From Rhodobacteraceae bacterium HTCC2083 (GTDB lineage Bacteria; Pseudomonadota; Alphaproteobacteria; Rhodobacterales; Rhodobacteraceae), in the NCBI GenBank assembly GCA_000156115.1, contig DS995276.1, positions 62,001 through 126,000 on the forward strand: a stretch of DNA of 64,000 nt. Direction: 5' to 3'. The translations under genes were made by a program, and so were the position numbers. This document shows positions 6,526 through 53,859 of this stretch, piece by piece. The notes under the pieces were generated by a model, which worked only from the letters and a program-made list of their open reading frames with translations, did not search any database and was not told where the DNA came from. Positions within the stretch are counted from its first letter, which is position 1, and each line of letters opens with the position of its first letter.

Positions 6526-6548
6526 GAGCAGGCCCTTTTCGAAATAAA

Positions 6549-6582: not shown

Positions 6583-6607
6583 GGAATTGAAGATTAGGTT
6601 GTGTGTC

Positions 6608-7648: not shown

Positions 7649-7700
7649 GGGGCCCTGCCCCCGTCTGCTGCACAGCCTCCCCCGAGGTATTTTAGGACCA
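7648..7700 (+). terminator. GC-rich 3' hairpin / intergenic motif
   Basis: GGGGGC-CCT-GCCCCC hairpin directly at the stop of the lipocalin-like gene, followed by CCCCCGAGGTATTTTAGGAC. It has no long T-run. I recall similar G/C-hairpin plus CCCCGAGGTATTT blocks being frequent between genes in Rhodobacteraceae, so it is probably a shared 3'-end element. Confidence 0.45.
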
Positions 7701-7767
7701 AAGAAGCGAAAGTGGAGTCGCGAGAGTGTGTGTGGCGGTTGGCGCAGTCTCGGTGTAGCAGGTATTT

Positions 7768-14179: not shown

Positions 14180-14254
14180 GCCCGGGTAGCTCAGGGGTAG
14201 AGCAGTGGATTGAAAATCCTCGTGTCGGTGGTTCGATTCCGCCCCTGGGCACCA
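14180..14254 (+). tRNA. tRNA-Phe (GAA)
   Basis: A 75-nt tRNA with encoded CCA. The acceptor strands are GCCCGGG and CCTGGGC (one G-T pair); anticodon loop TTGAAAA gives GAA at 14212-14214, and the T loop is GGTTCGATTCC. The anticodon stem has one T-T mismatch. This is the only complete copy in the window; its 3' half is the island attachment site (see repeats at 53811 and 61678). Confidence 0.96.
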
Positions 14255-14257
14255 TTT
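14209..14257 (+). repeat. attL: 3' half of tRNA-Phe (island A left end)
   Basis: 49 bp from the anticodon stem-loop through CCA plus three bases, ATTGAAAATCC...GGGCACCATTT. It recurs exactly at 53811-53859 and 61678-61726 (there extended to 53 bp). Integration into the 3' half of a tRNA with restoration of the gene is the classical pattern for tyrosine-integrase islands. Confidence 0.9.
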
Positions 14258-14373
14258 TTACCAATAAAAACAATGACTTAATTTTGCGCGATGCGCGCTA
14301 AAGTTGTGCAGATCAAAAACACACCAAACACACACTTTTTACCGTGTTGCTGACTATTTTTAGGGCGGATTCG

Positions 14374-14388
14374 CTGTGTTGAACACAG
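14374..14388. repeat. End palindrome CTGTGTT-G-AACACAG
   Basis: Perfect 7-bp inverted repeat with a one-base centre, 120 bp inside the left end of island A, with further half-sites at 14413-14421 (CACTGTGTT) and 14450-14466 (AACACAG, TGTGTT). The same palindrome with another centre base lies at 53691-53705. Likely a binding site for an island protein; see findings. Confidence 0.75.
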
Positions 14389-14479
14389 TGTAGGCTAGTG
14401 CTGTGTTGCGAACACTGTGTTGGCGGAGTTTTGGGACAACATGGTTGGGAACACAGATAATGTGTTTGCTGGCTTTCCA

Positions 14480-24669: not shown

Positions 24670-24680
24670 ATCAAAGCAAG

Positions 24681-24711
24681 GAAGGCCGGCGTCAATCGCC
24701 GGCCTTTTTTG
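24681..24711 (+). terminator. Intercistronic hairpin after dctP
   Basis: AAGGCCGGCG-TCAAT-CGCCGGCCTTTTTT: a 10-bp perfect stem with T-run. A full intrinsic terminator by sequence, probably leaky, giving more binding protein than permease. Confidence 0.85.
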
Positions 24712-24740
24712 ATTGAAGCGACACCAGGAGGGACCAAGGC

Positions 24741-25355
24741 ATGTCGAATTCTACAGACGAACTGCCAGCGGACGTCAGCGATGAAAGCGGCGAACGTTTA
24801 ATAAGAATAACAGATGAGCTGCCACAGTTCATCGGCGCACCAATGAACTGGATGCTCTTTGGCATGAAAGCCATCGTGACGATTTCAGGCTTTCTGATGG
24901 CGTTCACATTTGGCGCCGTCGTCGTCATCCGCTACGGGTTTGGCGGCGATCTATTCGCCTATGAAGAATGGCTTTTGGCGATCAGCATCGTCGGCTTTTT
25001 CGCAGGTGCCGTTTTGGCGTCCGAGCGTAAGCTACACATTAACGCCGACATACTCAGCATTGTGATCAGCGATCCGAAACTGATCTGGTGGCGCGGATTT
25101 GCCGTGCTGGTAATCGAACTGCTGGTGATCCTGTTTATCGTTTATGCCTGCTACATTTCGCTGCTTGATGACTTTTCGTTTCCGCGTTTGCGCGCAACAC
25201 CCGTGCTGCGCATTCCGTTTGTGTCGTGGCGCATCGCTATCATGATTGCATTCAGCTTTATGGCCATGTTCTCGGCTGCATATCTTTATGTGCATATCCG
25301 GCAAGGTCTTGGCCTTCCCTTGAAATCTGACACCCCCAAAGGAGCCGCCCAATGA
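24741..25355 (+). CDS. TRAP transporter small permease (DctQ)
   Basis: 204-aa inner-membrane protein with four hydrophobic segments (about residues 40-68, 82-100, 118-145, 160-185) and a longer hydrophilic N-terminus of about 35 residues. Standard size for DctQ. GGAGG ribosome site. Overlaps dctM by 4 bp (ATGA). Confidence 0.9.
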   Translation: MSNSTDELPADVSDESGERLIRITDELPQFIGAPMNWMLFGMKAIVTISGFLMAFTFGAVVVIRYGFGGDLFAYEEWLLAISIVGFFAGAVLASERKLHINADILSIVISDPKLIWWRGFAVLVIELLVILFIVYACYISLLDDFSFPRLRATPVLRIPFVSWRIAIMIAFSFMAMFSAAYLYVHIRQGLGLPLKSDTPKGAAQ

Positions 25356-26644
25356 TTATCACAGGAAGTCTTCTCATTGTTTGTGTGATGCTGCTGCTTG
25401 GCGTCAGCGTCTATATCGCCTTCGGCTCAGTTCTGATGTTCATCGCACTTGTCGGAGATCAATCGATCTCAGGCTATTTGCCAACCGGCTCAACCGGGAT
25501 CCGTTCTTTGGTATTGCTGGCCATTCCGCTCTTTATGATTGCCGGTGGCATCATGGAGAAAGGCAAGATTGCAGCTCCTCTTGTGTCATTGGCACAGATG
25601 TTTATCGGGCATATAAAGGGCGGTCTCAGTGCGGCTGGCGTTTTGGCATGTGGTGTCTTCGGCTCGATCTCGGGTAGTGCAAATGCGACATTGACCTGCA
25701 TCGGTGGCATCATGATGCCGCATTTGAAAAAGGCGAACTACCCCAAGGGGCAGTCGGCTGCTTTGATCGTTGCGGCGGCACCTCTTGGGCTTTTGATCCC
25801 ACCCAGTGCTTCGCACATTCTCTACGGCTGGGTTGCGCAACAACATGTTCTGAAGTGTTTTTTGTCGACAGTGATCCCAGCGTTCATTTTGATTACGCTG
25901 CTTATCCTCACCAACCAGTTCTTGTTGCGCAAGCATCACGATATCATCTTGTCAGAGCGGCCAACGCCATTCATGCCGACATTCGTGCGCCAAGGCCGTT
26001 TGGCGGGACCCGCTTTGATGATGCCTGTCATCATCTTGGGCGGCATCTATGGAGGGATCATGACCCCGACAGAAGCTGCCGGTATTGCGGTTGTCTATGC
26101 CGTCCCGATCGCGATTTACTATTACCGCGGACTGACATGGAAAACGATGGCTACAACCATCCAGACCTCCGGTGTGACAATCGGCGTTGTGATGGTGATG
26201 ATCTTTATGGTTCTGATCGTGTCTGACAATCTGATCGCGCAAGGCGCGCCCGCGCTGGCCAAACAGATGGTCTATTCCGTTTCTGAAAACCCGATTGTGA
26301 TCTTGTTGATGATCAACGTTGTGATGATCCTTATTGGCATGCTGATGGACGATATCTCGGGCTTGCTTCTGGCAACTCCGATTTTGCTGCCCATCGCGCA
26401 AAGCACGGGCATGGACCCCATCCATTTTGCGGCCGTCATCGGTGTGAACTTGGGGATGGCGAATATCACGCCACCAACTGCGCCACTGCTGTATCTGGGC
26501 GCGCAGGTTTGCGACGTACCCGTGTCGCGGATGCTTTGGCCAACTTTGATCTTCATCACGTTCGCATGGTTGCCAACGTTGATGCTGACCACGTTCATTC
26601 CAGAACTAGCTTTGTTCCTTCCTGACCTCTTGCTCGGCGATTAG
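25352..26644 (+). CDS. TRAP transporter large permease (DctM)
   Basis: 430-aa polytopic membrane protein, family length. Seen: GSISGSANATLTCIGGIMMP, AAAPLGLLIPPS, GIMTPTEAAGIA and GMANITPPTAPLLYLGA, all DctM signatures. Forms the transport channel with DctQ. Confidence 0.95.
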   Translation: MIITGSLLIVCVMLLLGVSVYIAFGSVLMFIALVGDQSISGYLPTGSTGIRSLVLLAIPLFMIAGGIMEKGKIAAPLVSLAQMFIGHIKGGLSAAGVLACGVFGSISGSANATLTCIGGIMMPHLKKANYPKGQSAALIVAAAPLGLLIPPSASHILYGWVAQQHVLKCFLSTVIPAFILITLLILTNQFLLRKHHDIILSERPTPFMPTFVRQGRLAGPALMMPVIILGGIYGGIMTPTEAAGIAVVYAVPIAIYYYRGLTWKTMATTIQTSGVTIGVVMVMIFMVLIVSDNLIAQGAPALAKQMVYSVSENPIVILLMINVVMILIGMLMDDISGLLLATPILLPIAQSTGMDPIHFAAVIGVNLGMANITPPTAPLLYLGAQVCDVPVSRMLWPTLIFITFAWLPTLMLTTFIPELALFLPDLLLGD

Positions 26645-26661
26645 AGCAATCAGGTAAGAAA

Positions 26662-26696
26662 GGTCGGGCGGTTACTTCTTCCTGAGCCGCCCGACC
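26662..26696 (+). other. RNA hairpin between dctM and usp
   Basis: GGTCGGGCGG and CCGCCCGACC form a perfect 10-bp stem around a 15-nt loop. No T-run follows, so more likely an mRNA stability or partial-termination element than a full terminator. Confidence 0.65.
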
Positions 26697-26754
26697 GGAA
26701 GTATCGGCACTGAACTTGCTTTCAGTGTGCCAAATAGAAACTGAGGATACCCAG

Positions 26755-27165
26755 ATGTATAACAATATTTTCGTAGCACTTTCCTTGGAACACGGCATCA
26801 GCGACCTTGCGCTGTCGGCGGCGCGTCAGTTGGTTTCCGAGGGCGGAAAGATTACAGCGATCCACGTCTATGAGCCGCCAAACAGTTCAGTTCTGGCGTT
26901 CCTTGAGGAGGATGCCGCTGAAAAGTCGCATCAACGCGCAAAGTCGCTCTTGGCTGAGCGGGTGAAGGGCGAAGTTGGTATCTCTTCTGTTTTGCTTAAA
27001 GGGCAATCCGCTGGGCACTCTATTACAGAATACGCCAACACGCATAATGCGGACTGCGTTGTGATCGCGTCACACCGGCCGGGATTGAAGGATTTTTTCC
27101 TTGGTTCCACGGCGGCACGCGTCGTGCGTCACGCACATTGTGCAGTGCATGTGCTGCGTTTTTGA
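26755..27165 (+). CDS. Universal stress protein (TeaD-like)
   Basis: 136-aa UspA-fold protein: MYNNIFVALSLE start, CVVIASHRPGLKDFFLGSTAARVVRHAHCAVHV end, i.e. the ATP-binding G-x2-G-x9-G(S/T) region is only partly kept. ATG 26755 with GAGGA upstream; the longer reading is not family-like. USP genes close TRAP operons elsewhere (TeaD of the ectoine transporter modulates uptake), so a transport-regulating role is likely. Confidence 0.85.
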   Translation: MYNNIFVALSLEHGISDLALSAARQLVSEGGKITAIHVYEPPNSSVLAFLEEDAAEKSHQRAKSLLAERVKGEVGISSVLLKGQSAGHSITEYANTHNADCVVIASHRPGLKDFFLGSTAARVVRHAHCAVHVLRF

Positions 27166-27339
27166 CGATTGAGTTGCCAGTTTTGATCGTAACTGCAACG
27201 ACCCAAGAGCAGTAGAAGCACATTATGCGCGTAGCGTCTGATGTCGACGATGCCTAGCCAAAAGATGGACGCAACGGTTTCGCGAAAAAACGATGCTGGT
27301 TGATGTAAAAGGAGACTCGTAATTGACCGGTTCGGCGAA

Positions 27340-27620
27340 ACGCGCTGCGCCTGAAACGACCGCGTGCGGGACTTGCGAGGAAGTGTTGGGCCAGCATTAG
27401 CTGCGAGTGCGATCGGCCGGTTTGTCCACGACCCACTAGTTCGACATCGCTGGTAGCGAAAGTTTGGTTTGGACTTGGCACCTGATCTCGGATTTCAATG
27501 GCTGCTTCAGTGATGTGCGCTGCATCGCGGCGATGAACATGCTGCAAGCGCGAAGAAATGCTGCGTCAGCAATAGCTGCGGATGCATAAGGCGGCTTTTC
27601 CCGCATAGCAGACCTTAATA
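27340..27620. repeat. Dispersed noncoding repeat, copy 2 (double)
   Basis: Two partial copies in tandem: AGCATTAGCTGCGAGTGC with CCGGTTTGTCC (27393-27428) and AATGGCTGCTTCAGTGATG, GCGCGAAGAAATGCTGCGTC, AGCAATAGCTGCGGATGC (27496-27595). The stretch 27166-27711 has no convincing gene. Confidence 0.6.
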
Positions 27621-27711
27621 CAGAGCGCAGCGAATGCCCTAAACGCTCAAACACACACTTTGATAGACTTGTTGGTGTACCCTGCCGTAGTGTTGTGGCA
27701 AGGAGCATGAC

Positions 27712-28947
27712 ATGCGGCAGCTGCGCGACGACACACATCTGATACTAGACGGCGAGGTGCGTGTGTATCGGCGCGAGCGCAGCAAGCGCTGGCAGGCAGC
27801 CTTTGTCATCAATGGACACACTATTCGCATCAGCACGGGTAAGCGCGATTTGGCTGAGGCCAAGGAGTACGCCCGCGAGACGTTCCTTGAGTACAAGTTC
27901 CGACACAAGAATGATCTGCCTGTTGTTACCAAGAAGTTCTCTGATGTGGCCAAGCTGGCAATTGCGGATATGCGCAAGCAGCTGGACGCAGGTTTAGGGC
28001 GCAAGGTGTTTGCGGATTACATCGTGTGCATTGAGCGTTATCTGATCCCGTTCTTCGGCGCGCAGTATGTGACCACCATCGATTATGAGAAGGTGCAGCA
28101 GTTCTATGAGTGGCGTCGCGAGAAGATGGGCCGTGAGCCAAAGGCCAGTACGCTCAACACGCATAACTCAGCCATGAACCGTGTGTTTGAAGAAGCCGTG
28201 GCTCGTGGCTTTCTGGCGCATAAGAATGTGCCGCTACTTGTGAACCGTGGTGAGAAAAGCGAACGCCGCCCTGACTTTACCCGTGAAGAATACGCGACAA
28301 TGATCCGCAAGATGCCAAGCTGGATCACCAAGGGTAAAACTGGCTAGCCCACAGACATGCGCCACCTCATGCGTGACTATGTGTTGATCATGGCAAATAC
28401 GGGCATGAGGCACGGTACAGAGGCGCTGAACCTCATGTGGAAGCATGTGACCCTATTTGAGGATGGTGGTCAGCAGTATCTGGAGATGAGCGTGTCAGGT
28501 AAAACTGGGCGCAGGGATATCATCTGTAGGTCGGGCACCATCAACTACCTCAAGCGTATCCATGAGCGATCTGAGGACATACGGCATATCCCATTTGAAG
28601 ACCTGCTCAAGCAGCGGGTCGATCTGCCCGTGTTCAGACTGCCTGATGGCACAGTATCAAAGAATATCCACCAAACATTCCGCAAGTTTGTCACCGACGC
28701 GGGGCTGATCACATGCCCACGTACAGGACAGAACCGCACCCTATACAGCCTACGCCACACCTATGCGACCTTTGCCTTGCTCAACGACGGCATGGATATA
28801 CACGCGCTTGCTGTGCAGATGGGCACAAGCATTGGCATGATTGAGCGGCATTACAGTCATTTGACGCCGCGCCTCAAGAAGGACATGCTCACGGGCAAAA
28901 GATATGAACTCAGTAGAGAAGAATACCATGAAAAGGATTTGCAATGA
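27712..28947 (+). pseudogene. Tyrosine integrase split by an in-frame TAG
   Basis: A continuous 412-codon frame interrupted only by TAG at 28345-28347. Upstream part: arm/core-binding N-terminus (VRVYRRERSKRWQAAFVING; Phe/Lys-rich SAM-like domain). Downstream part: whole catalytic domain with Arg in NTGMRHGTEAL, SLRHTYATFAL, and the Tyr in GMIERHYSHL. Good ribosome site (AAGGAG) before ATG 27712, and an in-frame ATG at 28357 could restart. Not homologous along its length to the 53954 and 61821 integrases. Most simply a recent nonsense mutation. Confidence 0.85.
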
Positions 28948-29492
28948 ACGACACTGTTGATGCCTCATCAAAATATCAGGACAGCCTTCCAATCTCATCA
29001 GATGCGATAATGGAACAGCTTGATAATTGGGGTATTACCTACATCCGTTCAGACCACGTGCCTTTGAGAACCGTAGCGGATTCCAAAAAGGTTCAAGGAC
29101 AGTTTTTATCCTCAGAGCAGGGGGGAGGTCATATCAAAAATCTCTACCTGCGTGATAATAAAAAGCGCAACATATTATTGGTCGCTGAGCAGGATAGACA
29201 GATAGATCTAAAGACGCTGCATACCAAACTGGAAACTGGACGATTGTCATTTGGATCTGCAGAAAGATTGATGCAAAATTTAGGGGTTCGCCCTGGAGCT
29301 GTAACACCGCTCTCAATGATCAATGGGGTTGAAGCGGGAGTGCAGTTGTTCCTCGATAGTGGATTAAAAAGTTGTAATCAGATTTATGTCCACCCTTTGG
29401 TTAATGATCGAACACTGGGTATAACGATGGAAGGGTTGCAGCAGTTCTTTGATAAAATCAAAGTCGAACCTGTTTGGGTAGATTTAGAGTAA
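28944..29492 (+). CDS. ProXp-type aminoacyl-tRNA deacylase
   Basis: 182-aa YbaK/ProX (prolyl-tRNA synthetase-associated) domain: ITYIRSDHVPLRTVADSK, GGGHIKNLYLRDNKKR, SAERLMQNLGVRPGAVTPLSM and NDRTLGITMEGLQQF. Such free-standing proteins clear mischarged Ala-tRNA-Pro in trans; it has the family Lys in DNKKRNILL. Its ATG overlaps the integrase stop (ATGA), so it was co-translated with the integrase. AT-richer than the chromosome. Role as element cargo is inference. Confidence 0.85.
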   Translation: MNDTVDASSKYQDSLPISSDAIMEQLDNWGITYIRSDHVPLRTVADSKKVQGQFLSSEQGGGHIKNLYLRDNKKRNILLVAEQDRQIDLKTLHTKLETGRLSFGSAERLMQNLGVRPGAVTPLSMINGVEAGVQLFLDSGLKSCNQIYVHPLVNDRTLGITMEGLQQFFDKIKVEPVWVDLE

Positions 29493-30050
29493 CTCCACCG
29501 CCTCACTCAGTTGCTCAGAATTTACGTCGATGTATCTCTGCGTGGTGGATATATGCGAATGCCCTGCTAACTCTGCAAGCAAACGCACTCCTACGCCCTT
29601 GTTGGCCAGCCTCGTGATGTATGTCCTGCGCCCTGAGTGACTGCTTGCATCCTTAAGACCAACAGCTTTGTAAATGTCCAAGAACAGCTGACACATTGTG
29701 TTGGCTGAGAAGTGACCGCCTTTCTGGCTCACAAACAGTGGGCGCTGCGGGTCAGTAATGCGTATGCAAGCGCTGTATTCCAGCAGTGCCTTACGAAAGC
29801 GCTGGTTGAGATACACCGTGCGTGTCTGCCCACCTTTGCTCTATGCCGCTGATAGAATGAACTGTGTGCGAACGTTACCTTCCTCATCAAACACATTGCC
29901 CACGGTAAGTGCAGCAATCTCCTTGGCCCTTAGCCCTGCGTAGAAGCTGGTAAGGATGATGGTCTCATCGCGTGTTGGATGACGGCGACTGCGGCAGTAC
30001 TGTATAACCCTGCGCAGCTGAGCCTCGTTGAGCGTTTGTGCTTGGCGCAT
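29484..30050 (-). pseudogene. Short tyrosine recombinase split by an in-frame TAG
   Basis: 189-codon frame with one TAG after FILSAA (about 29841-29843). Before it: FYAGLRAKEIAALTVG with the first catalytic Arg. After it: SKGGQTRTVYLNQRFRK, SSHSGRRTYITRLA (His-x-x-Arg) and GHSHISTTQRYIDV (His and catalytic Tyr). Lacks an N-terminal core-binding domain, like its relative at 60263. Ends 9 bp into the deacylase gene tail-to-tail. Apart from the stop the protein looks intact. Confidence 0.85.
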
Positions 30051-30289
30051 TGTGCTATCTCCTCAAACCTAACGTTATGTTAGCTTTGAGTATAAAGTCT
30101 GAGGTATTGGTCTTCCTACCGGAAAGACGCCTTGCCTGAAGCGTATATTTTACAATGACTTACGCAATAATCTCATACTATATACATTCTATGAGGTTTT
30201 GGGCTGTGTGATCGCGCTCGTTGCAGTGCAGCGCTCGTTGCAGCGCAACGATGCATTGGTTGGCTGTGTTTGAAGATCTAATAATGACG
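30051..30289. other. Intergenic with inverted repeats
   Basis: No gene. CTAAC-GTTAT-GTTAG at 30069-30083 lies just upstream of the broken recombinase. At 30208-30246 the segment GCGCTCGTTGCAG occurs twice and CGTTGC-AGC-GCAACG forms a hairpin, possibly the terminator region of the AAA gene. Confidence 0.5.
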
Positions 30290-30931
30290 TTACTGTTTTA
30301 TAGCCTTACTGGCCATTACGGTCTCTTCAATCAGGTCGATCAGATCTCGTGCGCTGCCATCAAAGCTCTGCAGCATCAGGGTGACATCTTGGCGATCTGG
30401 GTTAAGTCCCTCTGCGTGAAGAATGCTGAGTGCACGCAGGACCCAGTCTGTGCTTGAGGGTGGGTCTAAATCAAGCAAGCGGAACCTGCTGAGAAGCGCA
30501 CTCATAATACGGCTTTTGTGATTGGTCGTAGCCACAAAGCGGATCAGATGACGTTTAGCATCCATAAACTCTCGAAACTTTGGCTGTACGCTGCGCAAGT
30601 CCATCTCATCAATCTCGTTGATGACGATCAAGGCTCTGTCAGGATTGGCGAACATTTGATGGTTCACCTCAGCCATTATTTTGGCTTCATAGTCTTTACC
30701 GAGGCTGGCAGCGTTAAATTCCCAGTGCATGTGCTGGATGTTGTGACGCTCAAAATGACTGTAAGCAATCACACGCGCAGCTTCTGTTTTGCAAGCACCT
30801 GGTGGCCCTGCAAGCAACAGCGGCTTTGAAGGCGGCTGCGTACAGTATTGTTGGATGACAGTTGCATTGAGTGGGTCTGCAATGACCAAATCGTCAAATG
30901 TGCGTGGCAGGTGTTTGAGGTCAAATGACAT
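30290..30931 (-). CDS. Clamp-loader-like AAA+ ATPase
   Basis: 213-aa AAA+ protein most like RFC small subunits or phage gp44: LPRTFDDLVI start, P-loop GPPGACKTEAARV, WEFNAASLGKDYEAKI, Walker B VINEIDEMD, sensor 1 VATTNHKSRI, SRF box LLSRFRLLDLD, and sensor 2 region SFDGSARDLIDLI. Two oddities: Cys replaces the invariant Gly of Walker A, and Asn the Asp of Walker B. It ends without a collar domain. AAAGGA before ATG 30931. 68 bp downstream of the 31000-31803 gene, likely same transcript; replication role inferred. Confidence 0.75.
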   Translation of the reverse strand: MSFDLKHLPRTFDDLVIADPLNATVIQQYCTQPPSKPLLLAGPPGACKTEAARVIAYSHFERHNIQHMHWEFNAASLGKDYEAKIMAEVNHQMFANPDRALIVINEIDEMDLRSVQPKFREFMDAKRHLIRFVATTNHKSRIMSALLSRFRLLDLDPPSSTDWVLRALSILHAEGLNPDRQDVTLMLQSFDGSARDLIDLIEETVMASKAIKQ

Positions 30932-30999
30932 ACTCAAATCCTTTCGATTTATAAGCATTGAGTGGGGCAACATGCAGCTGCCCCACTGGGTGTGTGGTC

Positions 31000-31803
31000 T
31001 CAGCCGTAGGTGTGAGACAAAGCACTGTTGGTTTGAGCCGAGACTGTTGCATTCGCCCCGACGCGGATCATCTTGGAGGCGAACTCACGTACGTCGCGTG
31101 CGCGTTTGGATGCGAGATCACCTGCATCAAGCTTAGCCAGGCTTTCTTGGGCGCGCTCATCAAGGTCTTTGCCGGATGAGACGAGGACTGCGTCGATGAT
31201 ACCTGCTTCATTGCAGCCATACACAATTGTGCCAGTGCCGTTGTCGTTGCAGCGCACAAGTGCAACTGCATAGTCTTCCTCATAGTCAGTATTGGGCTGA
31301 ATGAATGTTGGTAAATCAAATGTGCTCACTCCAACCTGGACTTCTATGAGGCCTTCGAGTGCCAGCTTCTTGAAGTCGTCTTTGGACATAGCTGAAGCTT
31401 TATTTGACATTGGCACACGACGTACTTCTTCAAGACCGCCACATTCCTGCACATAGCTGGTAAAGCTTTGATCTGGGCCCTTCATGTCGTGAGCGATTGC
31501 AACCACACGTGCGTAAGCATCTTCACGACGACCTTGCGTTCCAAATACATAGCGGATCACTTTAAGCGCTAAGCTGGTGTTGGCTTGCGCCTTAAGTTCA
31601 AGGTCCGTGAGCAAAGCTGCAAACGCGCGACGCTTGCCAACTTCAGCTTTGAGTTCAGCATACATGGCGAACACGCCTTCGAGGATCACGTAAAGTTCAT
31701 CGTTTGATGCGCGCAGTGTACCCTCTTCCCACGTTACACGAGCGGTGTGCATTGCATCCAGGCGTTTATGGATATCGGTTTTGATTTGAGATTGAACAGA
31801 CAT
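31000..31803 (-). CDS. Unknown 267-aa protein next to the AAA ATPase
   Basis: Not recognised. Soluble, no signal or membrane segment. N-terminal two thirds helical and charged (about residues 1-100), with a later beta-rich part (VQVGVSTFDLPTFI, GTIVYGCNEAGIIDAVLV) and a helical C-terminus. AAGGAAG before ATG 31803 supports this start over the longer frame. Being first in the transcript with the clamp-loader-like ATPase, it may be its partner or a DNA-binding factor; this is only context. Confidence 0.7.
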   Translation of the reverse strand: MSVQSQIKTDIHKRLDAMHTARVTWEEGTLRASNDELYVILEGVFAMYAELKAEVGKRRAFAALLTDLELKAQANTSLALKVIRYVFGTQGRREDAYARVVAIAHDMKGPDQSFTSYVQECGGLEEVRRVPMSNKASAMSKDDFKKLALEGLIEVQVGVSTFDLPTFIQPNTDYEEDYAVALVRCNDNGTGTIVYGCNEAGIIDAVLVSSGKDLDERAQESLAKLDAGDLASKRARDVREFASKMIRVGANATVSAQTNSALSHTYG

Positions 31804-31985
31804 GGTTCTTCCTTTCAATTGTCGTTTACAGCAATGTGCAAACTGTTGAGTAAAAGCCCAAATCCTTACGAGCAGTGTTCTCAGGATACAGTGGACCACA
31901 GCATTTAAATGTCATTCTGGGACTCGTTTAATCGAAAAAGTGCCCTAGATTTTGACTCCATATTCATCATGAAGGAGATGGAGTC

Positions 31986-32765
31986 ATGGTTGTGGAAATG
32001 ATCAAGGGCAAAGAGCGGCCAATGATTTTTTTGACTGCACCGCCCGAAATAAAGCAGACAGCATGTTTAAGATTCCGTGTGCCGCGCAATCTGCCCTACC
32101 GTGATGCGCCACCTTATAAATCGTCAATTTACTATTGGTGGTGGGCATTTTTGAAGCGCGATCAAAATTACGCAGACACTTGTGCAAGCCGAGGTAGGGG
32201 CCAATCTGCAAAGCTCTACAAAGATTTTGGCAATGTATTTAAAAGTGATTTCTTAACGTGGTGGCGATGCCATCAGGGTCTTTTTGCAGAACAAAGCGCA
32301 GCTGAAGACCATAAAATTCCCTGTGACACAGAAAGTAGAATTTGGTATCAAATTGACCCTAAGCGGCCATTTAATCAGATACATGAAGAGATACGAGCGC
32401 TTCACCTACAAGCACACGCCATCATGCCTAAAAAGCGCGCCTCACCCAGTTCGACAGCGCAGTATCCAGTTTATGCAAATGTATCAGCACATACTTTGCA
32501 CCGCGTACTGGCTATTTGGGATTTACGCTCAGTTAACCCGGAGGCATCCGCCTATGAGTTAGGAGTATTAGCTGGATACAAAGCCAACCTCATACCGACA
32601 TCCGTGTTTGGAGAAACTCGTACACGGCGGGCACTAGACGCCCAATTGCACAACAAGCGTGTGCGTGTGAGTATCGCCAATAAAGCCAATCGCTACTTAC
32701 GTACCGCTGCTCAATACATCAAAAATGTCGGCCGTGGTGAGTTTCCTAAGGCTCAAAACCGGTAG
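31986..32765 (+). CDS. Unknown 259-aa protein, divergent from the AAA operon
   Basis: Not recognised. Basic, soluble, aromatic-rich: SIYYWWWAFLKRDQNYADTC and KLYKDFGNVFKSDFLTWWRC form the best conserved-looking part (residues 45-95). The C-terminal third resembles a helical DNA-binding region (YELGVLAGYK, RVRVSIANKANRYLRTAAQY). AAGGAG 8 bp before ATG. Ends in TAG. Divergent from the 31803 gene with 182 bp between. Confidence 0.7.
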   Translation: MVVEMIKGKERPMIFLTAPPEIKQTACLRFRVPRNLPYRDAPPYKSSIYYWWWAFLKRDQNYADTCASRGRGQSAKLYKDFGNVFKSDFLTWWRCHQGLFAEQSAAEDHKIPCDTESRIWYQIDPKRPFNQIHEEIRALHLQAHAIMPKKRASPSSTAQYPVYANVSAHTLHRVLAIWDLRSVNPEASAYELGVLAGYKANLIPTSVFGETRTRRALDAQLHNKRVRVSIANKANRYLRTAAQYIKNVGRGEFPKAQNR

Positions 32766-32830
32766 CACTGAGGGCTTTTCCGAAATACTATCCAATTGTT
32801 TTTATTAAATAATAAGGCAAACACATGGGT

Positions 32831-32910
32831 TTGGAAGTGCAGTGTTTGCTATTTTTGCCAAACACTGCACTTCCAAGTGCAGTGTTAACACTGCATGTTT
32901 AAACACAGTG
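32831..32910. repeat. Cluster of nested palindromes
   Basis: A perfect 18-bp inverted repeat with a 10-bp loop (arms TTGGAAGTGCAGTGTTTG, 32831-32848 and 32859-32876), then the palindrome TGCAGTGTTAACACTGCA (32878-32895), TGTTTAAACA (32896-32905) and the half-site AACACAGTG (32902-32910). The first could terminate the 31986 gene; the rest look like protein-binding or origin sites. The remainder of 32766-33043 has no gene. Confidence 0.7.
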
Positions 32911-33043
32911 TTTAACCTGCAAACCGTCAAGCGTTCTCACTTTGACGAGGGCAGTCTTGCTGTGTTTGTGTTGAGATGTTTTGGAGTTGAGCTGCTGCAC
33001 TGTCCTGCTTGAGTATGCATCAGCGGTTTAACCAACACTCTGA

Positions 33044-33370
33044 CTAATACTCCTCTGCCAGCATGATGGTCAGCACACGCGCAGTGACAGTCTCGTCACT
33101 TGGATCTGGCGAGTGCATGTGCAGATCAAGATCGTAGTAGTCAATCTTCCAAAAAAACGTTGTGCCCTCAAGTGTGATTTGGCCGAAGTCATGCTCCCCA
33201 TATGGGTCATTGTTAGGTGTGAAGGCATCATACCTGCGCACTTGATCCAAAAGGTCGGGCACATCTTTCAACCCCTGTACGCCTTGAGTGATCACGACAC
33301 GACACTCCTTGAAGGTCTGCCGTGCTCGATCATTAAGTGCTGTTATAATGGAAGCATTTACGTCAGGCAT
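33044..33370 (-). CDS. DUF3768 family protein
   Basis: 108 aa. Matches DUF3768 by the RARQTFKECRVVITQGV opening, DAFTPNNDPYGEHDFGQI, and KIDYYDLDLHMHSPDPSDE, which are hallmarks of this plasmid- and island-associated alphaproteobacterial family. Function unknown. Start ATG 33370 lies inside the end of the upstream gene (8-bp overlap), so the pair is coupled. Confidence 0.85.
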   Translation of the reverse strand: MPDVNASIITALNDRARQTFKECRVVITQGVQGLKDVPDLLDQVRRYDAFTPNNDPYGEHDFGQITLEGTTFFWKIDYYDLDLHMHSPDPSDETVTARVLTIMLAEEY

Positions 33371-33821
33371 TGGCTGCTGCTTTAGCAGCACCTGGCTTGA
33401 GTGCAGGCCTACGCTCTGCCACTCGGGTAATGGCTGCATCCAGTTCTCCTGCGGCTGCTGCCTGGAGCAATGCATCTAAAACCCCAGCTACATCAGCAAG
33501 TGTCTTGACCAGTACTGCATTGTTGGTGCCATCAGCTGCGATCACACGCGCCCCATACCGACACTGCACATACCAACCGCCATCTTGTTCAAAGAACCAT
33601 GGGCGAATGCGACGATGCGTTTTGACCAGTACACGTTCACCCATGTCATTGGTCATCCACTTGTCGCGCTCAACGCGGTGATCTTCTTTTTTGAGTGCTG
33701 CGGCATGTACCAGCTTTTGCTCTTTAAGTCCTGCTACGAGCTTGTCACGTCGCGCTATGATGGGATCGCGCTTCATACTGCGATCAACTGTTTTGAATGT
33801 AAGCTTTGCCAAATGTGTCAT
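33363..33821 (-). CDS. Unknown 152-aa protein (DUF6641-like)
   Basis: Basic soluble protein with IIARRDKLVAGLKEQ, the RRIRPWFFEQDGGWYVQCRYG segment and an Ala-rich C-terminus. I believe it resembles the family named DUF6641, also common on Rhodobacterales mobile DNA, but that assignment is from memory. Coupled to the DUF3768 gene. Confidence 0.7.
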   Translation of the reverse strand: MTHLAKLTFKTVDRSMKRDPIIARRDKLVAGLKEQKLVHAAALKKEDHRVERDKWMTNDMGERVLVKTHRRIRPWFFEQDGGWYVQCRYGARVIAADGTNNAVLVKTLADVAGVLDALLQAAAAGELDAAITRVAERRPALKPGAAKAAANA

Positions 33822-34026
33822 ATGCGCTCCTTGCTGCTTGGTTACAGCTAAAGCGTATGTTCACTTTGATGTTTGGACTACCGAAAAGACAGTCAAGATA
33901 CTGATTTAATGATACAAAATTAGATTATAGGTTGCTGAATATATACGTGCAGTATCGATGCTGTTTACTTGCATATGGAGTAATGCATCACTTTAGGGCG
34001 CGTAGATATACCGACCCTACGCCCAT

Positions 34027-34061
34027 AAAAAAAGCGTCTAACGGTTTGCTCCGCTGACGCT
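34027..34061 (-). terminator. Terminator of the Rep-like gene
   Basis: Read on the minus strand: AGCGTC, 17-nt loop, GACGCT, then seven T. It lies 235 bp beyond the stop of the Rep-like gene. The rest of 33822-34295 shows no gene. Confidence 0.75.
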
Positions 34062-34295
34062 GTATATCTTACTGTCTATTTGATCATCTTCGTTTGAGCA
34101 TTTGTTGATGTTCTGTGTTGTTTATCAACTGTAGTTTGAACAATTGCTCGTGAACAAGGATGTGCCAAGACCTGCGCCTCTGGCATTCGTTCTGTTCAAA
34201 CTGCTCAGGTGTTTGCTGCGTGAAGGGGCTTAGCCACGCTCCATCATCTGCAAATCACCGCATGCCTCATATCGTGCCTTTTGATCGTTTAATGC

Positions 34296-34856
34296 CTATT
34301 GTGCCTGCCTAAGCCAGAGTGGGCTGGCTGCCCTTTGAATGCGATATGTCTGTTGTGCATGTGCATACTGCGCCATCGTATCGGACAAAGTTTGGTCCCA
34401 GCACAATTCATCTAAAATGGTATCACTGCCCATGCGCCAATACTCGTGGGTGACGTAACCGGCCACAGCGGCACGGTCTTGCACGGGCATGATCCAGTTC
34501 TTTGTCAGCGGCGCGGTCTGTGCGTGATGCTGCGCCCAGAGTGCGTTTAGTAAGCAGCACATGTGTTCTGTGTCCTGCAGTGGGCTCGGCATCACAAAGT
34601 GGATGTGGAAGTTCTCATTGTCTGATCCCTCGTGTGCAAAGCACCAGCGTGGCACGCGCATGTTCTGGCGCTCAGCAGCTTTGCCGTAGATCACGCGGTC
34701 TATCTTGTTCCAGTAGCTGCGAAGAAGCTTATGGGCTGTTTGCCTGCAAATGGTCCTGCCGTTCACAAACTTGAGCGTGCCGAACACATTCCAGTCCTGT
34801 GCCAGAAGGTGCTCGCTAAGTGCCTGTCGTTCCTGTCTGCGTTGTTCAAATCCCAT
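34296..34856 (-). CDS. HUH-type Rep-like endonuclease
   Basis: 186 aa. Order of motifs fits rolling-circle Rep/relaxase HUH enzymes: motif I FGTLKF (about residue 25), motif II FHIHFVMP with the His-x-His metal site (about 85), motif III VAGYVTHEYWR with the candidate nicking Tyr (about 135). GGAG 8 bp before ATG 34856. About 80 bp upstream sit large inverted repeats (34937-34990) suited to be its origin or operator. Could initiate replication of an excised circle or mobilise it; which one is not visible. Confidence 0.72.
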   Translation of the reverse strand: MGFEQRRQERQALSEHLLAQDWNVFGTLKFVNGRTICRQTAHKLLRSYWNKIDRVIYGKAAERQNMRVPRWCFAHEGSDNENFHIHFVMPSPLQDTEHMCCLLNALWAQHHAQTAPLTKNWIMPVQDRAAVAGYVTHEYWRMGSDTILDELCWDQTLSDTMAQYAHAQQTYRIQRAASPLWLRQAQ

Positions 34857-34936
34857 TGCGGTTCTCCGCATGTATTTATCAACGAAGAAGAAAAGGCGGC
34901 AGAAACGGCAAGATTGTGTTGCATCAATTGTGTTGA

Positions 34937-35126
34937 AACCACTGTGTTGTCGGTTTGTGGTTGCAACATAGTCTTTAGAACACAGTGGTTGCCCCGCAGC
35001 GTCGTAAGAAATTTCCGTAACACAGTCCCGCACCAAAGTGTCGCAAGAAGTTTTCGCACCACAGTTTCCGACTCATGTGCTGAGGGACAATATCTGCCCT
35101 CGTGTTTGCTTCAGCACCACTGTGTT
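34937..35126. repeat. Inverted repeats upstream of the Rep-like gene
   Basis: AACCACTGTGTT (34937-34948) and AACACAGTGGTT (34979-34990) are perfect 12-bp inverted repeats; further half-sites AACACAGTC at 35019 and CACTGTGTT at 35118. Located between the divergent Rep-like gene and the 35166 operon. Same core as the palindromes at both ends of island A. Confidence 0.75.
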
Positions 35127-35165
35127 TTGATAAATACTTGTGAGACCAAAACACTGGAGAATTGG

Positions 35166-35492
35166 ATGAGCATAAGACTATTAGAACACATGCGCGATGA
35201 ATTGATCGCAACGGGTATCGTGCAGAACACACCAGAGTTTTGTCGCAGCTGGCTAGGGCGCAGTGAGGGCTATATCCGCGTGCTGCGCTATCACAACACA
35301 GAACCAAGTGTAGAAACGCTGAGTATTTGTGCAAGCAAGCTTGGATACTACGGGGCAAGGCTGGCAAACAGTGAGTTACACGAGCATCAAATCTGGGCCA
35401 AACGTCTATCAGACCTAAAGATGCAGTGTGACAGTGCAATTGGGCGGCAGGCAGAGGCAGTGTGGCGTGCGCCAGAACGGATGGCAGTATGA
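35166..35492 (+). CDS. Small helical protein (DUF6626-like)
   Basis: 108 aa. Region TPEFCRSWLGRSEGYIRVLR with EPSVETLSICASKLG resembles a helix-turn-helix and, from memory, the DUF6626 family of Rhodobacterales mobile DNA. Start ATG 35166 has GGAGAATTGG upstream. Its stop overlaps a 42-codon frame (ATGA), suggesting coupling. Possible small regulator divergent from rep. Confidence 0.7.
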   Translation: MSIRLLEHMRDELIATGIVQNTPEFCRSWLGRSEGYIRVLRYHNTEPSVETLSICASKLGYYGARLANSELHEHQIWAKRLSDLKMQCDSAIGRQAEAVWRAPERMAV

Positions 35493-35617
35493 GCCGCTGG
35501 TCCGAAATGGGTTCTGCGACTGCAAAAATCTGCGCTGCGGTTTTTTGTAGACCAGTACTTACGCTTTTGGGGTGGTCTTTTGCGTACCCCACTCCCCCAG
35601 CTAGGAGTGGTACATGA
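35489..35617 (+). CDS. Coupled 42-aa hydrophobic small protein
   Basis: Small frame that overlaps the previous stop by 4 bp (ATGA) and the next start by 4 bp (ATGA), so three frames in a row are chained. Protein has a hydrophobic centre (AKICAAVFCRPVLTLLGWSF), possibly one membrane helix. No family recognised; reality argued from the double overlap. Confidence 0.5.
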   Translation: MSRWSEMGSATAKICAAVFCRPVLTLLGWSFAYPTPPARSGT

Positions 35618-35964
35618 CTGACCGGGACGAACTCCGCCGATTGATTGATGTAATTGAGAAGGCTTCCGGCAATGGCAGAGTCGAGCAGGCTGTCCATGAC
35701 ATCAAGACCTTTGCCAACACAGTTAGCTTTTTAGCTAACAAACTGGATGCCAGGATTAAGGGTGGTAATTTAAAGACCAAACCCAAGTCACGTATTGGCA
35801 AAGCCATTGCACCGCCTATTCCTAAGCGTAATGTTCCGCAGCAACAGGCCACTTCGAACTCCACAGCTAGCGGCATGCCTTCCGCTGTATCGAGCTCAAC
35901 ATCGCAGGCTGACTACGACAGGCTCAAGCCGCAGGGTGCGCAGGGGCCAATCTCAACATCGTAA
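35614..35964 (+). CDS. Unknown 116-aa protein
   Basis: Not recognised. N-terminal half predicted helical (RDELRRLIDVIEKASGNGR, FANTVSFLANKLDARI), basic middle (KTKPKSRIGK), Ser/Gln-rich C-terminus, likely disordered. Last gene of the chained 35166 operon. GGAG before ATG. Confidence 0.6.
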   Translation: MTDRDELRRLIDVIEKASGNGRVEQAVHDIKTFANTVSFLANKLDARIKGGNLKTKPKSRIGKAIAPPIPKRNVPQQQATSNSTASGMPSAVSSSTSQADYDRLKPQGAQGPISTS

Positions 35965-36189
35965 ACAGCTGGCGTCGTACAGTGCGTATAAGCGTCGTGT
36001 TGGCGGCGACCTGTCCGTATCAGCATCTCGTGGCGTTCAGCGTGGGTTGGGGCTGTACGCGGTGTTTTGAGCGTTTTTAATGCGAAAAGCGTCGTAACGA
36101 AGTACTGCGAAATTCCATTGACCGTCAGGCTGAGAGGTATGCCTTAGAAGGTTACTACTGAGACTTTCGCAAAGCGGTCGTTGGTGCAG

Positions 36190-36400
36190 GACGCAGCTAA
36201 CGGCAGTTGCGAGCCCACACCGGACCTGTTGATTTTGTGTTGCGTGCGCTCGCAGCGCGAAAATTTCGGCAATAGCGAAAATTTTTATGCCCTTGCGCGG
36301 CGGTAAAACCGGTCATTCATTCGAGCCGCGGCGAAGCAACGACGGCGATGGATCAAGCCGCGGCCAACCCAACCTTCGCTGAGTTGGTCACAATGACCGC
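36190..36400. repeat. Dispersed noncoding repeat, copy 3
   Basis: GGCAGTTGCGAGCCCACACC, GTGCGCTCGCAGCGCGAAAA and GGCGGTAAAACCGGTCATTC match copies 1, 4 and 5. A short piece (GGCGGAAAGACCGGTAATTC) recurs at 36840. No gene in 35965-36549. Confidence 0.55.
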
Positions 36401-36549
36401 TTGCGGATACCTGTTTCGCGATGGAAAATAGCGCGGGCTGTGGAGCACCGATGTTGCAAGGCGCAGTTTCATAAATCAAAATTTCCTTGACAAGGTGCGG
36501 GTTCTCGCAAACCTGATCCAAGTAAATCCACAAAGGTAATGAAAACCAA

Positions 36550-36750
36550 ATGCAGGTTAGTGTTCGCGACAACAACGTCGATCAAGCCCTTCGGGTTTTG
36601 AAGAAAAAGCTACAACGCGAAGGCGTATTCCAAGAAATGAAACTGAAGCAACACTTCGAAAAACCGTCTGAGAAAAAAGCGCGGGAAAAAGGTGAAGCAA
36701 TCCGCCGTGCTCGCAAACTGGCGCGAAAAAAACTAGAGCGCGAAGGCTAA
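36550..36750 (+). CDS. rpsU: 30S ribosomal protein S21
   Basis: 66-aa S21: [20 protein letters not shown] start, [20 protein letters not shown] core and the basic tail [15 protein letters not shown]. Probably an accessory copy, as it sits inside the island next to groESL. Ends in a perfect 14-bp hairpin. Confidence 0.95.
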
Positions 36751-36759
36751 CCACTCATC

Positions 36760-36794
36760 CTTCTGATCTGTTTCGTTGAAAAACAGATCAGAAG
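36760..36794 (+). terminator. Hairpin after rpsU
   Basis: CTTCTGATCTGTTT-N7-AAACAGATCAGAAG, a perfect 14-bp stem 10 bp after the stop. No immediate T-run, so termination strength is unsure. Confidence 0.7.
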
Positions 36795-37009
36795 TAGGCC
36801 CGATGAGTTTTTCATTATGGATTGATCCGGACCGCACTGGCGGAAAGACCGGTAATTCATCAAACTTCAGCGAAAGCTAAACGCTGAAGGATCAACTGGC
36901 CGAAGCTACCCTACAGTTCAAGTTTAGCTTGATCTGCTTTGACCACTTCGAAATTATTGACGGTGCCGCTCTTTGGCAATCGAGACAGCACTCACGGTGC
37001 AATTTCTAG

Positions 37010-37558
37010 CTACCGAAACTTAGGACCATGTGCCCATACAGTCAGCGAATGGAGGGTCCCTCGTGTCACTGGCGTCACTTGATGCAGATGAAAACTTGGG
37101 AAGATAGTGATAGAGCCTTGCGTACGGTTTGACGCAATAATGTGCGCGCCCGGCATAACTTCCAGATCACCACCATCATAGCTGCCGGGTTTGCAAAGCT
37201 GCGCGACCAAGGTCAGTTTTCGTTTACGTGCCATTTGGCCATCACCAATATCGGAATGCCACGTAAAATGACCGGATTCCGACGCATTGTAGCTGGCAAC
37301 CTGCGGGCTCTCCGCGAATTCGCTGAGATCAAAATCGAACCAGTTTCGGTTTGCGGTTCGGACTACTTCGATTAGCCGCTCCATGACCCACCCCATGCTG
37401 TCAACCTCATCCAGCCAAACGAGCTTTGCACGGCGCAGATTATGATCCCGGTTGTGACCAACAAGCAAAGCATCGCTGGCTGGAGCTGGCGCCACGGCGT
37501 TGAGGATTGTGTTGCATTCAGCTTGGGTGAAACCATCAACAATAGAATGTACGTTCAC
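37010..37558 (-). CDS. 2OG-Fe(II) oxygenase, copy 1
   Basis: 182-aa PKHD/prolyl-4-hydroxylase-like oxygenase. Iron ligands: HxD in WHSDIGDG (about residues 100-102) and the distal His in FHLHQVTPV; the 2OG-binding Arg is in TRGTLHSL. GTG start with AAGGAA upstream. Close paralogue at 46934-47485; both begin the protein with a lid-like segment and end in WAHGPxFR. Substrate unknown; free-standing forms modify proteins or small molecules. Confidence 0.85.
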   Translation of the reverse strand: MNVHSIVDGFTQAECNTILNAVAPAPASDALLVGHNRDHNLRRAKLVWLDEVDSMGWVMERLIEVVRTANRNWFDFDLSEFAESPQVASYNASESGHFTWHSDIGDGQMARKRKLTLVAQLCKPGSYDGGDLEVMPGAHIIASNRTQGSITIFPSFHLHQVTPVTRGTLHSLTVWAHGPKFR

Positions 37559-37969
37559 CTGCTAAGTTCCTTGTCCAAGATTGTACTCGATACTGCGGGT
37601 CATTTTGCACGCCATGCTGATCCATTTTCGACCAAAGCGCGGGAATGCGACTTAAATCTAAAGCGGCACGCTGCCTTTTGAGGGGGGTAGTGTTCAGTCG
37701 AGACCTATGAAGTGCCGCCAATTTGAATGCCCTCGAGAGCAACAAGGCGCAATTAGGGGTTCAGAGAATGAATTTATAGCTGCCTGCGCAGTCAGGACAG
37801 TTTATGTGCCCCTACAAAACCTCTAATGCCGCAACGCGCCGTAACAACCGACCATTCGTACGCACTGTATCCATCAAAAGGTAGTCAATGTCATATTGCG
37901 CGACAATCCCCACAAATATTTACGATCAGTCTATTGTACTCGATCTCGGCGATAGCCACTTATCTCATA

Positions 37970-37996
37970 TTAGCACTCTGGTGTGGCGAGTGCCAA
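37970..37996. promoter_or_regulatory. CIRCE operator (HrcA site) of groESL
   Basis: TTAGCACTC-N9-GAGTGCCAA; matches the CIRCE consensus TTAGCACTC-N9-GAGTGCTAA with one mismatch. It lies 54 bp upstream of groES, so HrcA repression and heat induction are expected. The rest of 37559-37969 has no gene. Confidence 0.88.
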
Positions 37997-38049
37997 TGGG
38001 TTTCTAAGCACGCCATCCACCCCCGTAAATCTTGAAAGGCAGCATTGCT

Positions 38050-38337
38050 ATGTTGTTTACCCCACTCCACGACCGCGTTTTGGTTCGTCTCATTGAAAGT
38101 GACGAAAAGACATCAGGCGGTCTGATTATCCCCGATACTGCCAAGGAAAAACCACAAGAAGGCGAAGTGGTATCTGTTGGTGCAGGTGCAAAGGACGAAG
38201 CTGGCGCACGTATCGCCATGGACGTCAAAGCTGGCGACAAGATTTTGTTCGGCAAATGGTCCGGAACGGAGATCAAGATCGATGGCGAAGAACTGATGAT
38301 CATGAAGGAGAGCGACATTCTCGGCATTATGGCCTGA
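38050..38337 (+). CDS. groES: Co-chaperonin GroES
   Basis: 95-aa Gro[21 protein letters not shown] mobile-loop region, [18 protein letters not shown] and the YG-less [16 protein letters not shown] end. Caps GroEL. ATG at 38050 follows AAAGG. Under the CIRCE element and 44 bp from groEL. Island copy, probably additional to a chromosomal one. Confidence 0.96.
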
Positions 38338-38360
38338 ACGACGCTGCAAATTTCACATAA

Positions 38361-40016
<1,656 letters not shown>

Positions 40017-53464: not shown

Positions 53465-53590
53465 TAGCTTTAAATGGCTGCTTTCACGACATGGCCGCAG
53501 CAAAGTAAAAAATGTGCCGCAAGAGCGAAGAAATGCTGCGTGAGCATTAGCTGCGACTGCATAGGTCTGGTTCGTCCGCATAGCGGCCAT
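53465..53590. repeat. Dispersed noncoding repeat, copy 6
   Basis: AAATGGCTGCTTTCACGACA, GAGCGAAGAAATGCTGCGTG, AGCATTAGCTGCGACTGC, GGTTCGTCCGCATAGCGGCC. Closest to copy 2. It sits just inside the right end of island A. Confidence 0.6.
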
Positions 53591-53690
53591 AAACAATAGT
53601 TAGAGTGAACGTCCACTTCATTTAGTCCGTGTCCAGTCTTGCGTCTTTTGGAATGTTGAACAGTGTGTTAGAATTAGATGCTTGCGATTA

Positions 53691-53705
53691 CTGTGTTAAA
53701 CACAG
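53691..53705. repeat. End palindrome CTGTGTT-A-AACACAG
   Basis: Same 7-1-7 palindrome as at 14374-14388, here 106 bp inside the right end of island A. Confidence 0.75.
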
Positions 53706-53810
53706 CATTTTTGCCCTAGCCATAAAATACCGCAAAAACACACTTGCACGCACACCAAAAATATCACCACGTAAACTATTAAATATAAACGTATAATTTA
53801 CACCACCTCC

Positions 53811-53859
53811 ATTGAAAATCCTCGTGTCGGTGGTTCGATTCCGCCCCTGGGCACCATTT
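53811..53859 (+). repeat. attR of island A / attL of island B
   Basis: Exact 49-bp copy of the tRNA-Phe 3' half without the 5' half, so not a tRNA. Followed 95 bp later by an integrase gene. Confidence 0.92.

Follow-up and report, generated by a model that had tools for sequence, protein, structure and literature searches.

Tycheposons are tRNA-associated marine islands that carry a tyrosine recombinase and varied cargo, and they have been described from cyanobacteria. Actinomycete integrative and conjugative elements (AICEs), such as pSAM2, insert mostly at the 3′ end of tRNA genes by means of a tyrosine integrase, encode the HUH rolling-circle initiator RepSA and leave elongation to host proteins, as set out in the sections of PMC3218068 drawn on here. 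Strand-biased circularizing elements (SEs) appear in the sections of PMC10214605 drawn on here with the gene order intA-tfp-intB-srap and without an HUH endonuclease. We analyzed a stretch of 64,000 nucleotides (nt) from Rhodobacteraceae bacterium HTCC2083 (contig DS995276.1, positions 62,001 to 126,000), hereafter the window, in which a sequence-only reading had drawn attention to an HUH Rep-like enzyme lying close to a clamp-loader-like ATPase. With belief and doubt about evenly balanced, we take these genes to be the core that moves and replicates a tRNA-associated integrative island of roseobacters, in which a cassette of three genes (p31986, PART and AAA) would serve as a replication or maintenance aid. 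Observed at the locus are direct repeats of the tRNA-Phe 3′ end, conserved ends, the island's own recombinase genes, a one-tyrosine protein of the HUH Rep type, palindromes, repeated sites and the cassette. The principal features, in window coordinates, are as follows.

14180..14254, plus strand: tRNA-Phe, predicted by ARAGORN; the left attachment repeat is formed by its final 40 nt (14215-14254).
14255..14455: left terminal region of the island, carrying AAACACACACTTT and AACACTGTGTT (14411), conserved with loci L064, L068, L106, L107 and L108.
27712..28947, plus strand: INT2, tyrosine recombinase of 411 codons with one in-frame TAG at 28345-28347.
29484..30050, minus strand: small tyrosine recombinase of 188 codons, catalytic domain only (PF00589, phrog_216), with a TAG at 29841-29843.
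30290..30931, minus strand: AAA, an RFC/gp44-type AAA+ ATPase of 213 amino acids (aa) with no collar domain (Pfam AAA, PHROG and family profile).
31000..31803, minus strand: PART, the partner of 267 aa, immediately 5′ of the AAA gene.
31986..32765, plus strand: p31986, a 259-aa protein divergent from PART.
34230..34856, minus strand: HUH Rep-type protein; a TAG at 34296-34298 removes a conserved 21-residue tail, and H84, H86 and Y134 precede it.
53515..53856: right terminal region with the right attachment repeat (53817-53856), matched in other loci.

The genes listed in the sequence-only reading are present and open at or near where it placed them, with three starts corrected by conservation: that of HUH to 34,856 (not 35,036), that of PART to 31,803 (not 31,899) and that of a DUF3768 gene to 33,370.

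The 40-nt 3′ end of tRNA-Phe is repeated at 14215-14254, 53817-53856 and 61684-61723. We read the interval 14,255-53,856 (39.6 kb) as island 1, with island 2 (7.9 kb) and the start of island 3 following in tandem; islands 2 and 3 each open with a 402-aa integrase frame (53,954-55,162 and 61,821-63,029) just past the repeat. Host DNA to the left of tRNA-Phe runs collinear with that of Planktotalea frisia (L064/L104), P. arctica (L107) and another member of this genus (L106), probably that of the window's host, as far as ~14,400-14,455, the 200 bp downstream of the tRNA recur in L068 and L108 as well, and an INT2-type gene follows the conserved left end in L064, L068, L106, L107 and L108. The right end is matched in L102 (53515-53864), L108 (53569-53864) and L067 (53690-53822). 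Three other members of the family (L037, L039 and L042) lie in tRNA-Cys and have 40-nt repeats; these, like the window, show the features of a tRNA-integrated element, namely an integrase and, at each border, a directly repeated tRNA 3′ end. The integrative element suspected earlier is thus borne out by the repeats, the conserved ends and the recombinases. The core of island 1 occupies 27,641-36,264, so that the genes first singled out lie in the middle of the island; homology of the INT2 region to other copies starts at 27641-27649, and the INT2 relative in L029 matches Pfam Phage_integrase. Exact repeats near INT2 and beyond p35614, a small core gene described below, were not found in the window and measured 18 nt in L040 and 14 nt in L031. 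Island 2 also holds a small-recombinase fragment (60197-60658) and a frame at 58048-59901 that we take to be HtpG-like.

Motif I of HUH enzymes has the form of an FTLTF-like strand. Among 11 aligned relatives of the window protein, which include members just 22-26% identical, F25-G26 of this motif are kept in 11/11 and T27, L28, K29 and F30 in 10/11 each. H84 and H86 of motif II, with I, V or F between them, and Y134 of motif III are likewise kept in all 11, the residue three positions after the tyrosine being K or H in seven and R in four, and the motifs run in the order I-II-III. By these motifs the protein is assigned to the one-tyrosine Rep class. A YxxK/H motif in a helix is called a hallmark of HUH endonucleases in the portion of PMC5714925 used here, and Y134 sits in helix 128-141 of the predicted structure (mean predicted local distance difference test score, pLDDT, 69.9). 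That model matches SIRV1 ORF119 (2x3g; Z 8.4, root-mean-square deviation 3.1, 108 aligned), which ranks second and which we take to be a Rep, and AAV Rep and IS608-type transposases at Z ~7; the comparison with known Reps is only suggestive. The ratio of nonsynonymous to synonymous substitution rates (dN/dS), computed for core genes against one to three of L064, L066 and L067, is 0.10-0.16 for HUH. The fold comparison with IS608-type transposases, and the mobile-type nature of the islands, would also suit a relaxase-like or transposase-like mobilization enzyme rather than a vegetative replication initiator. We regard this as unlikely: the HUH motif precedes the tyrosine, which is the Rep-type order, whereas relaxases have the tyrosine before the HUH motif; 7/11 members match Pfam REP_ORF2-G2P below its cut-off (best 0.0022); and the single phage match, not significant at E 0.8, comes from a 7-kb phage, where the protein is named "replication gene A protein". 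The Rep-like enzyme of the sequence-only reading therefore stands on its conserved motifs, with sub-threshold Pfam matches.

The ATPase is placed by its sequence in the clamp-loader branch of AAA+. It matches Pfam AAA (7e-10) and the PHROG clamp loader phrog_168 (2.2e-21), and its family profile matches RFC5 (8.5e-32), archaeal RFC (2.2e-30), T4-type gp44 (7.4e-20 to 7.7e-20), DnaX (9.8e-20) and VCP-like proteins (1.7e-15). G42, G45, K48, E106, T136, N137, R149 and R195, which we take to represent Walker A, the catalytic Glu, sensor 1, the SRC Arg and sensor 2, are kept in 10/10 aligned members, and dN/dS is 0.13. These members measure 209-246 aa and end after the AAA+ lid, and matches to full-length RFC chains stop near residue 205-245 of 320-360. 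The earlier description of an RFC/gp44-like ATPase without a collar was accurate. Because the protein ends where the collar would begin, we call it clamp-loader-type and not a clamp loader, and a canonical clamp loader is not expected. A relative in L037 has 11 records annotated as clamp loader or RFC among the 12 phage records listed.

PART and p31986 are among the several members for which, as the sequence-only reading had said, no known family was found. The AlphaFold2 model of PART has a pLDDT of 66.7, and its first 130 residues are helical at moderate confidence. PART gave no match to folds in the PDB (best E 1.5), no result against PDB sequences (best 0.054) and none against PHROGs (one member each, best 0.039); profile comparison with AAA gave a probability of 0.6. 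Its dN/dS is 0.03, with dS near saturation. A distant PART-like domain occurs in chromosomal proteins of the same class (L118 7698-9662, L119 3552-4829 and L120 7622-8074); that of L118 has a weak PAS_5 match (0.01) and aligns with a probability of 97% over 153 columns. For p31986 dS is saturated, and no dN/dS ratio is therefore given; its W/Y/F content is 11.5%, a figure that stands without a background value. PF20109, which we take to be DUF6499, has matches in 7/61 genomes and none in the window's own genome. The p31986 member of L121 matches it at E 0.029, below the cut-off, and comparison of p31986 with PF20109 by hhalign gave a probability of 24% over 16 columns, from 4/9 PF20109 loci picked by pattern. 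p31986 has a conserved YYWWxYLRR-like core, which recalls the AWEFLRRN motif carried by DUF6499 activators in the account of PMC10359603 that we drew on; the group in question is that of the FseA (DUF6499-DUF2285) activators.

Profiles made from the window genes and run on fetched loci revealed a recurrent core of INT2 (mostly 400-500 aa), the small recombinase (~190 aa), DUF6626, p35614, DUF6641-like, DUF3768, HUH and the cassette p31986-PART-AAA. With twice-fetched loci removed, PART and AAA occur together at 16 distinct loci (window, L029, L030, L031, L032, L033, L035, L036, L037, L042, L064, L067, L068, L077, L121 and L122). In 16/16 PART immediately precedes AAA on the same strand, although it is split into two frames in L042, and p31986 lies divergent beside PART in 15/16, the exception being L037. 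These loci span three alphaproteobacterial families, L121 and L122 coming from two further families. PART matches occur in 6/385 genomes, three of them distant and excluded from the 16. A search with AAA alone found nine short-frame places in 6/196 genomes (E <= 1.4e-8), 9/9 beside PART; it matched 155/196 genomes overall, and the matches beyond these nine, in long frames of mostly ~440 aa, were taken as other AAA proteins and dropped. The set therefore does recur in other genomes, a point that the sequence-only reading had put forward for checking. Its refuting condition, that the genes match a known plasmid or phage family as a standard set, was answered in part. No plasmid match was found for the window AAA or HUH at E 1e-5, and PART and the DUF6641-like protein matched neither plasmids nor phages; the phage search for AAA was run with the L037 protein and not that of the window, and HUH has the phage match at E 0.8 already given. 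Scans of viral contigs for AAA and HUH gave pattern matches in some cases, none of which was confirmed.

HUH is present at 10/16 cassette loci, and in one further case on another contig of the same genome (L035/L034). Among 196 genomes of the order, 10 have HUH, seven have PART and five have both (0.36 expected, P = 2e-6), which mainly shows membership of one element family. Because loci picked by HUH or PART searches are selected by those very genes, they cannot be used for an association count, and DUF6626 (PF20331, E <= 0.001) was used to draw a sample. This gave 19 places in 13/196 genomes, 11 genomes being over the cut-off, with 0/14 in controls. Both modules are present at seven of the 19 (in G140 on different short contigs, and in L037 without p31986), HUH only at two, the cassette only at three, and neither complete at seven, where ~10 kb was seen on each side and two loci have p31986 alone (Fisher p = 0.07).

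In the preferred reading, INT2 would excise the island as a circle, and the HUH protein would nick an origin within the palindrome or repeat regions and so start rolling-circle copying, in which the host's helicase and polymerase would be used. PART and the ATPase would form a ring that helps to load or hold replication proteins on the island, perhaps the host beta clamp. We infer that the cassette, as a maintenance aid gained or lost by islands, assists their replication or maintenance; p31986 or DUF6626, which may be regulator-like, would regulate the gene set. In a more specific version, PART, a separate protein always encoded next to the ATPase, would supply the missing collar, and the resulting split loader would bring the host clamp to rolling-circle intermediates. 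Integrative elements would then have a new replication strategy, but we think this version quite unlikely to hold.

A number of observations weigh against the island core and cassette functioning as we propose. The C-terminal collar domain that marks a clamp loader subunit is missing from AAA, and 3/10 members, the window included, have N in place of the first Walker B acid. No AAA gene lies next to the three distant PART-like loci. Ribosomal-protein folds score Z 8.0-8.7 against the HUH model, other ferredoxin-like folds do equally well, a fold Z of ~8 lies within the tool's stated background, and Foldseek returned no match for the model at E <= 0.001. Three core genes of the window are interrupted. 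HUH was undetected at five of the 16 cassette loci (L030, L036, L042, L121 and L122, of which L036 and L122 are at contig starts), and no HUH was found anywhere in the genomes of L036 and L042. HUH has no cassette beside it in L028 and L039, two loci with fully visible cores, among others, and there are also the seven DUF6626 loci with neither HUH nor a full cassette. Finally, the two modules differ in their closest relatives. PART of the window is 85% identical to that of L067, 49% to that of L075 and 27-30% to those of L064, L068, L074, L077 and L079 (27% for L064, from P. frisia), whereas HUH is 89% identical to that of L064, 81% to that of L067 and 63-69% to those of L074, L075, L077 and L079; the cassette sits after DUF3768 in the window and L067, and between DUF6626 and HUH in L029, L032, L033, L064, L068 and L077. 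Judged from these sequences, HUH and cassette alleles are exchanged independently. Since each module occurs alone and their alleles exchange independently, one obligate machine of HUH and ATPase is not supported, and nor is the idea of a dedicated pairing; the association across DUF6626 loci is at p = 0.07.

The five cassette loci without detected HUH, and among them L121 with its intact INT2, small recombinase, DUF6626 and cassette, would be expected if the cassette were an alternative initiation module that replaces HUH, PART or p31986 binding the origin and AAA loading a helicase or polymerase. This we consider decidedly improbable, because the DUF6626 loci, with both modules at 7/19 and neither complete at 7/19, follow no either/or rule, and the ATPase profile best matches clamp-loader subunits. 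The related proposal of one module or the other in each island was rejected on the same seven loci, as seen over ~10 kb to each side.

The optional presence of the cassette, its two different positions in the core and its exchange independently of HUH also suit a cargo role, for example in defense or counter-defense, with island replication needing HUH only. Among the relatives, L124 has a type ISP enzyme (3256-8193) between INT2 and DUF6626, a DrmD-like helicase lies near the L033 core (3498-6350) and a type I restriction subunit near the L032 core (128-2392), the island limits being unfixed in these last two. PART and p31986, however, had no PADLOC match at 0.01, the match of AAA to IetA is limited to a short Walker A stretch, and the three genes stay together in 15/16 loci beside core genes in three families. 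A cargo role is accordingly a serious possibility, though in our judgment a doubtful one.

The interruptions in the window copy are of one kind. A single internal stop, TAG every time, lies in each of INT2, the small recombinase and HUH, and the other core frames are open. The TAG removes catalytic parts of both recombinases and spares the catalytic residues of HUH. Compared relatives have a sense codon at these sites (L064 and L068 for INT2, L064 and L066 for the small recombinase, and most aligned rows for HUH). A tblastn survey (28 matches for INT2, 28 for the small recombinase and 30 for HUH, repeats of one locus included) found other interior stops in an INT2 fragment of L036 and in the small recombinase of island 2, while stops in L031, L028/L072 and L030 fall at frame ends. 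Stops were flagged elsewhere in HUH of G109, G135 and G031 and in the PART gene of G007, and L042 has a split INT2, so that decay is not confined to the window copy. Over the three TAG-bearing frames dN/dS is 0.04-0.16, and the stops are therefore either recent or read through; amber suppression and recent joint inactivation are both possible. Because both recombinase genes and HUH carry a premature TAG, the window copy is probably immobile and fixed in place. A stop codon in the integrase gene of an AICE has been reported, with ribosomal slippage proposed, in the part of PMC3218068 drawn on here.

The remaining core features are listed below.

28944..29492, plus strand: passenger gene with an aminoacyl-tRNA editing domain (PF04073, 2.8e-22), between the two recombinases.
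32831..32912: palindrome, AACACTG-type repeats and AACACAGTGTT (32902), a candidate origin or operator.
33044..33370, minus strand: DUF3768 protein (PF12599, 4.7e-33), overlapping the upstream DUF6641-like gene by 8 bases.
33363..33821, minus strand: DUF6641-like protein (PF20346, 6.4e-4, below cut-off; phrog_31551, 1.2e-14).
34857..35165: region between HUH and DUF6626, in which TTGATAAATAC is present as inverted copies and ACACAGT sites are repeated.
35166..35492, plus strand: DUF6626 protein (PF20331, 8.3e-39).
35614..35964, plus strand: p35614, a small core protein of 116 aa, downstream of DUF6626 in relatives.

Values of dN/dS are 0.21 and 0.36 for DUF3768, 0.06-0.11 for the DUF6641-like gene, 0.12-0.14 for DUF6626 and 0.12 for p35614.

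Of the palindromes remarked on earlier, that at 32,831-32,876 is real, with a perfect 18-bp stem and a 10-nt loop; DNA folding of 32,815-32,925 gave z = -5.0, and 0/200 shuffles were as stable. A near-identical palindrome follows DUF3768 in L066, where no cassette was seen, so the palindrome goes with the island and not with the cassette. In the 4.0-Mb genome there are four places with the sequence AACACWGTGTT (two for the reversed control), all in two islands of the family: the window has it at 14,411 and 32,902, and the other two places fall in the second of these islands, in L043, near a gene that we take to be rplM. A general host motif was rejected on this distribution. The fetched loci have eight occurrences in 223 kb outside the drawn spans and 14 in 179 kb within them, and the specificity of the motif for the element therefore holds for the window's own genome only. 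Rfam at its gathering cut-off gave no match in 24,000-40,000 of the window.

The slot between the recombinases holds the tRNA-editing gene in the window and an rpsU-like gene in L064, from P. frisia. Relatives of the small recombinase of L064 are common on plasmids, all at <60% identity (1617 records). Genes of the rpsU type go with the islands (36550-36750 in the window and 13050-13256 in L064). Island 1 also encloses a region at 38032-40016 whose genes we take to be groES-groEL; the same genome has another groEL at G000:C5:482592-484226, to which the island gene is 78% identical, and the proposal that the island groEL must be host DNA as the sole copy was rejected on that ground. The intergenic stretch at 36234-36333 is a dispersed repeat found at ~72-81% identity in many places of this and related genomes.

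With a conserved, exchangeable RFC/gp44-type cassette, such islands would have a new layer of control over their replication or maintenance, and the two proteins make a small system in which to ask what a clamp-loader motor can do when it has no collar. Restriction genes are present in some related islands (L124) among marine roseobacters, and the replication and spread of these islands thus bear on phage resistance in the sea.

Literature searches, in which most subscription journals were not covered, found no description of this island family. By general description the window island resembles Tycheposons in its tRNA association, tyrosine recombinase and varied cargo. The ATPase is like T4 gp44 and the RFC small subunit in its AAA+ domain with kept residues, and unlike them in having no collar and in being joined by PART, a partner with no match among solved proteins. 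HUH is like the SIRV1 ORF119 Rep and REP_ORF2-G2P in having one tyrosine and, putatively, a Rep-type fold, its sequence match lying below the Pfam cut-off and its fold match not above background. With SEs and GInts, as treated in the relevant part of PMC10214605, the island shares two tyrosine recombinases and the character of an integrative element without known mobilization genes; it differs from SEs in that one recombinase is just 188 aa and an HUH gene is present. AICEs such as pSAM2 likewise combine tRNA-end integration by a tyrosine recombinase with an HUH initiator-type protein. Their hosts are actinomycetes, whereas the window host belongs to another phylum, and the likeness is one of description and not of RepSA or TraB sequence; these two were absent among the family matches of the 10 scanned core frames, no comparison having been aimed at RepSA or TraB. 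A clamp-loader-type cassette is not mentioned for AICEs in the sections of PMC3218068 that we drew on. tRNA-integrated elements with rolling-circle initiators are thus a known kind, and the clamp-loader-type cassette is the unusual part of this one.

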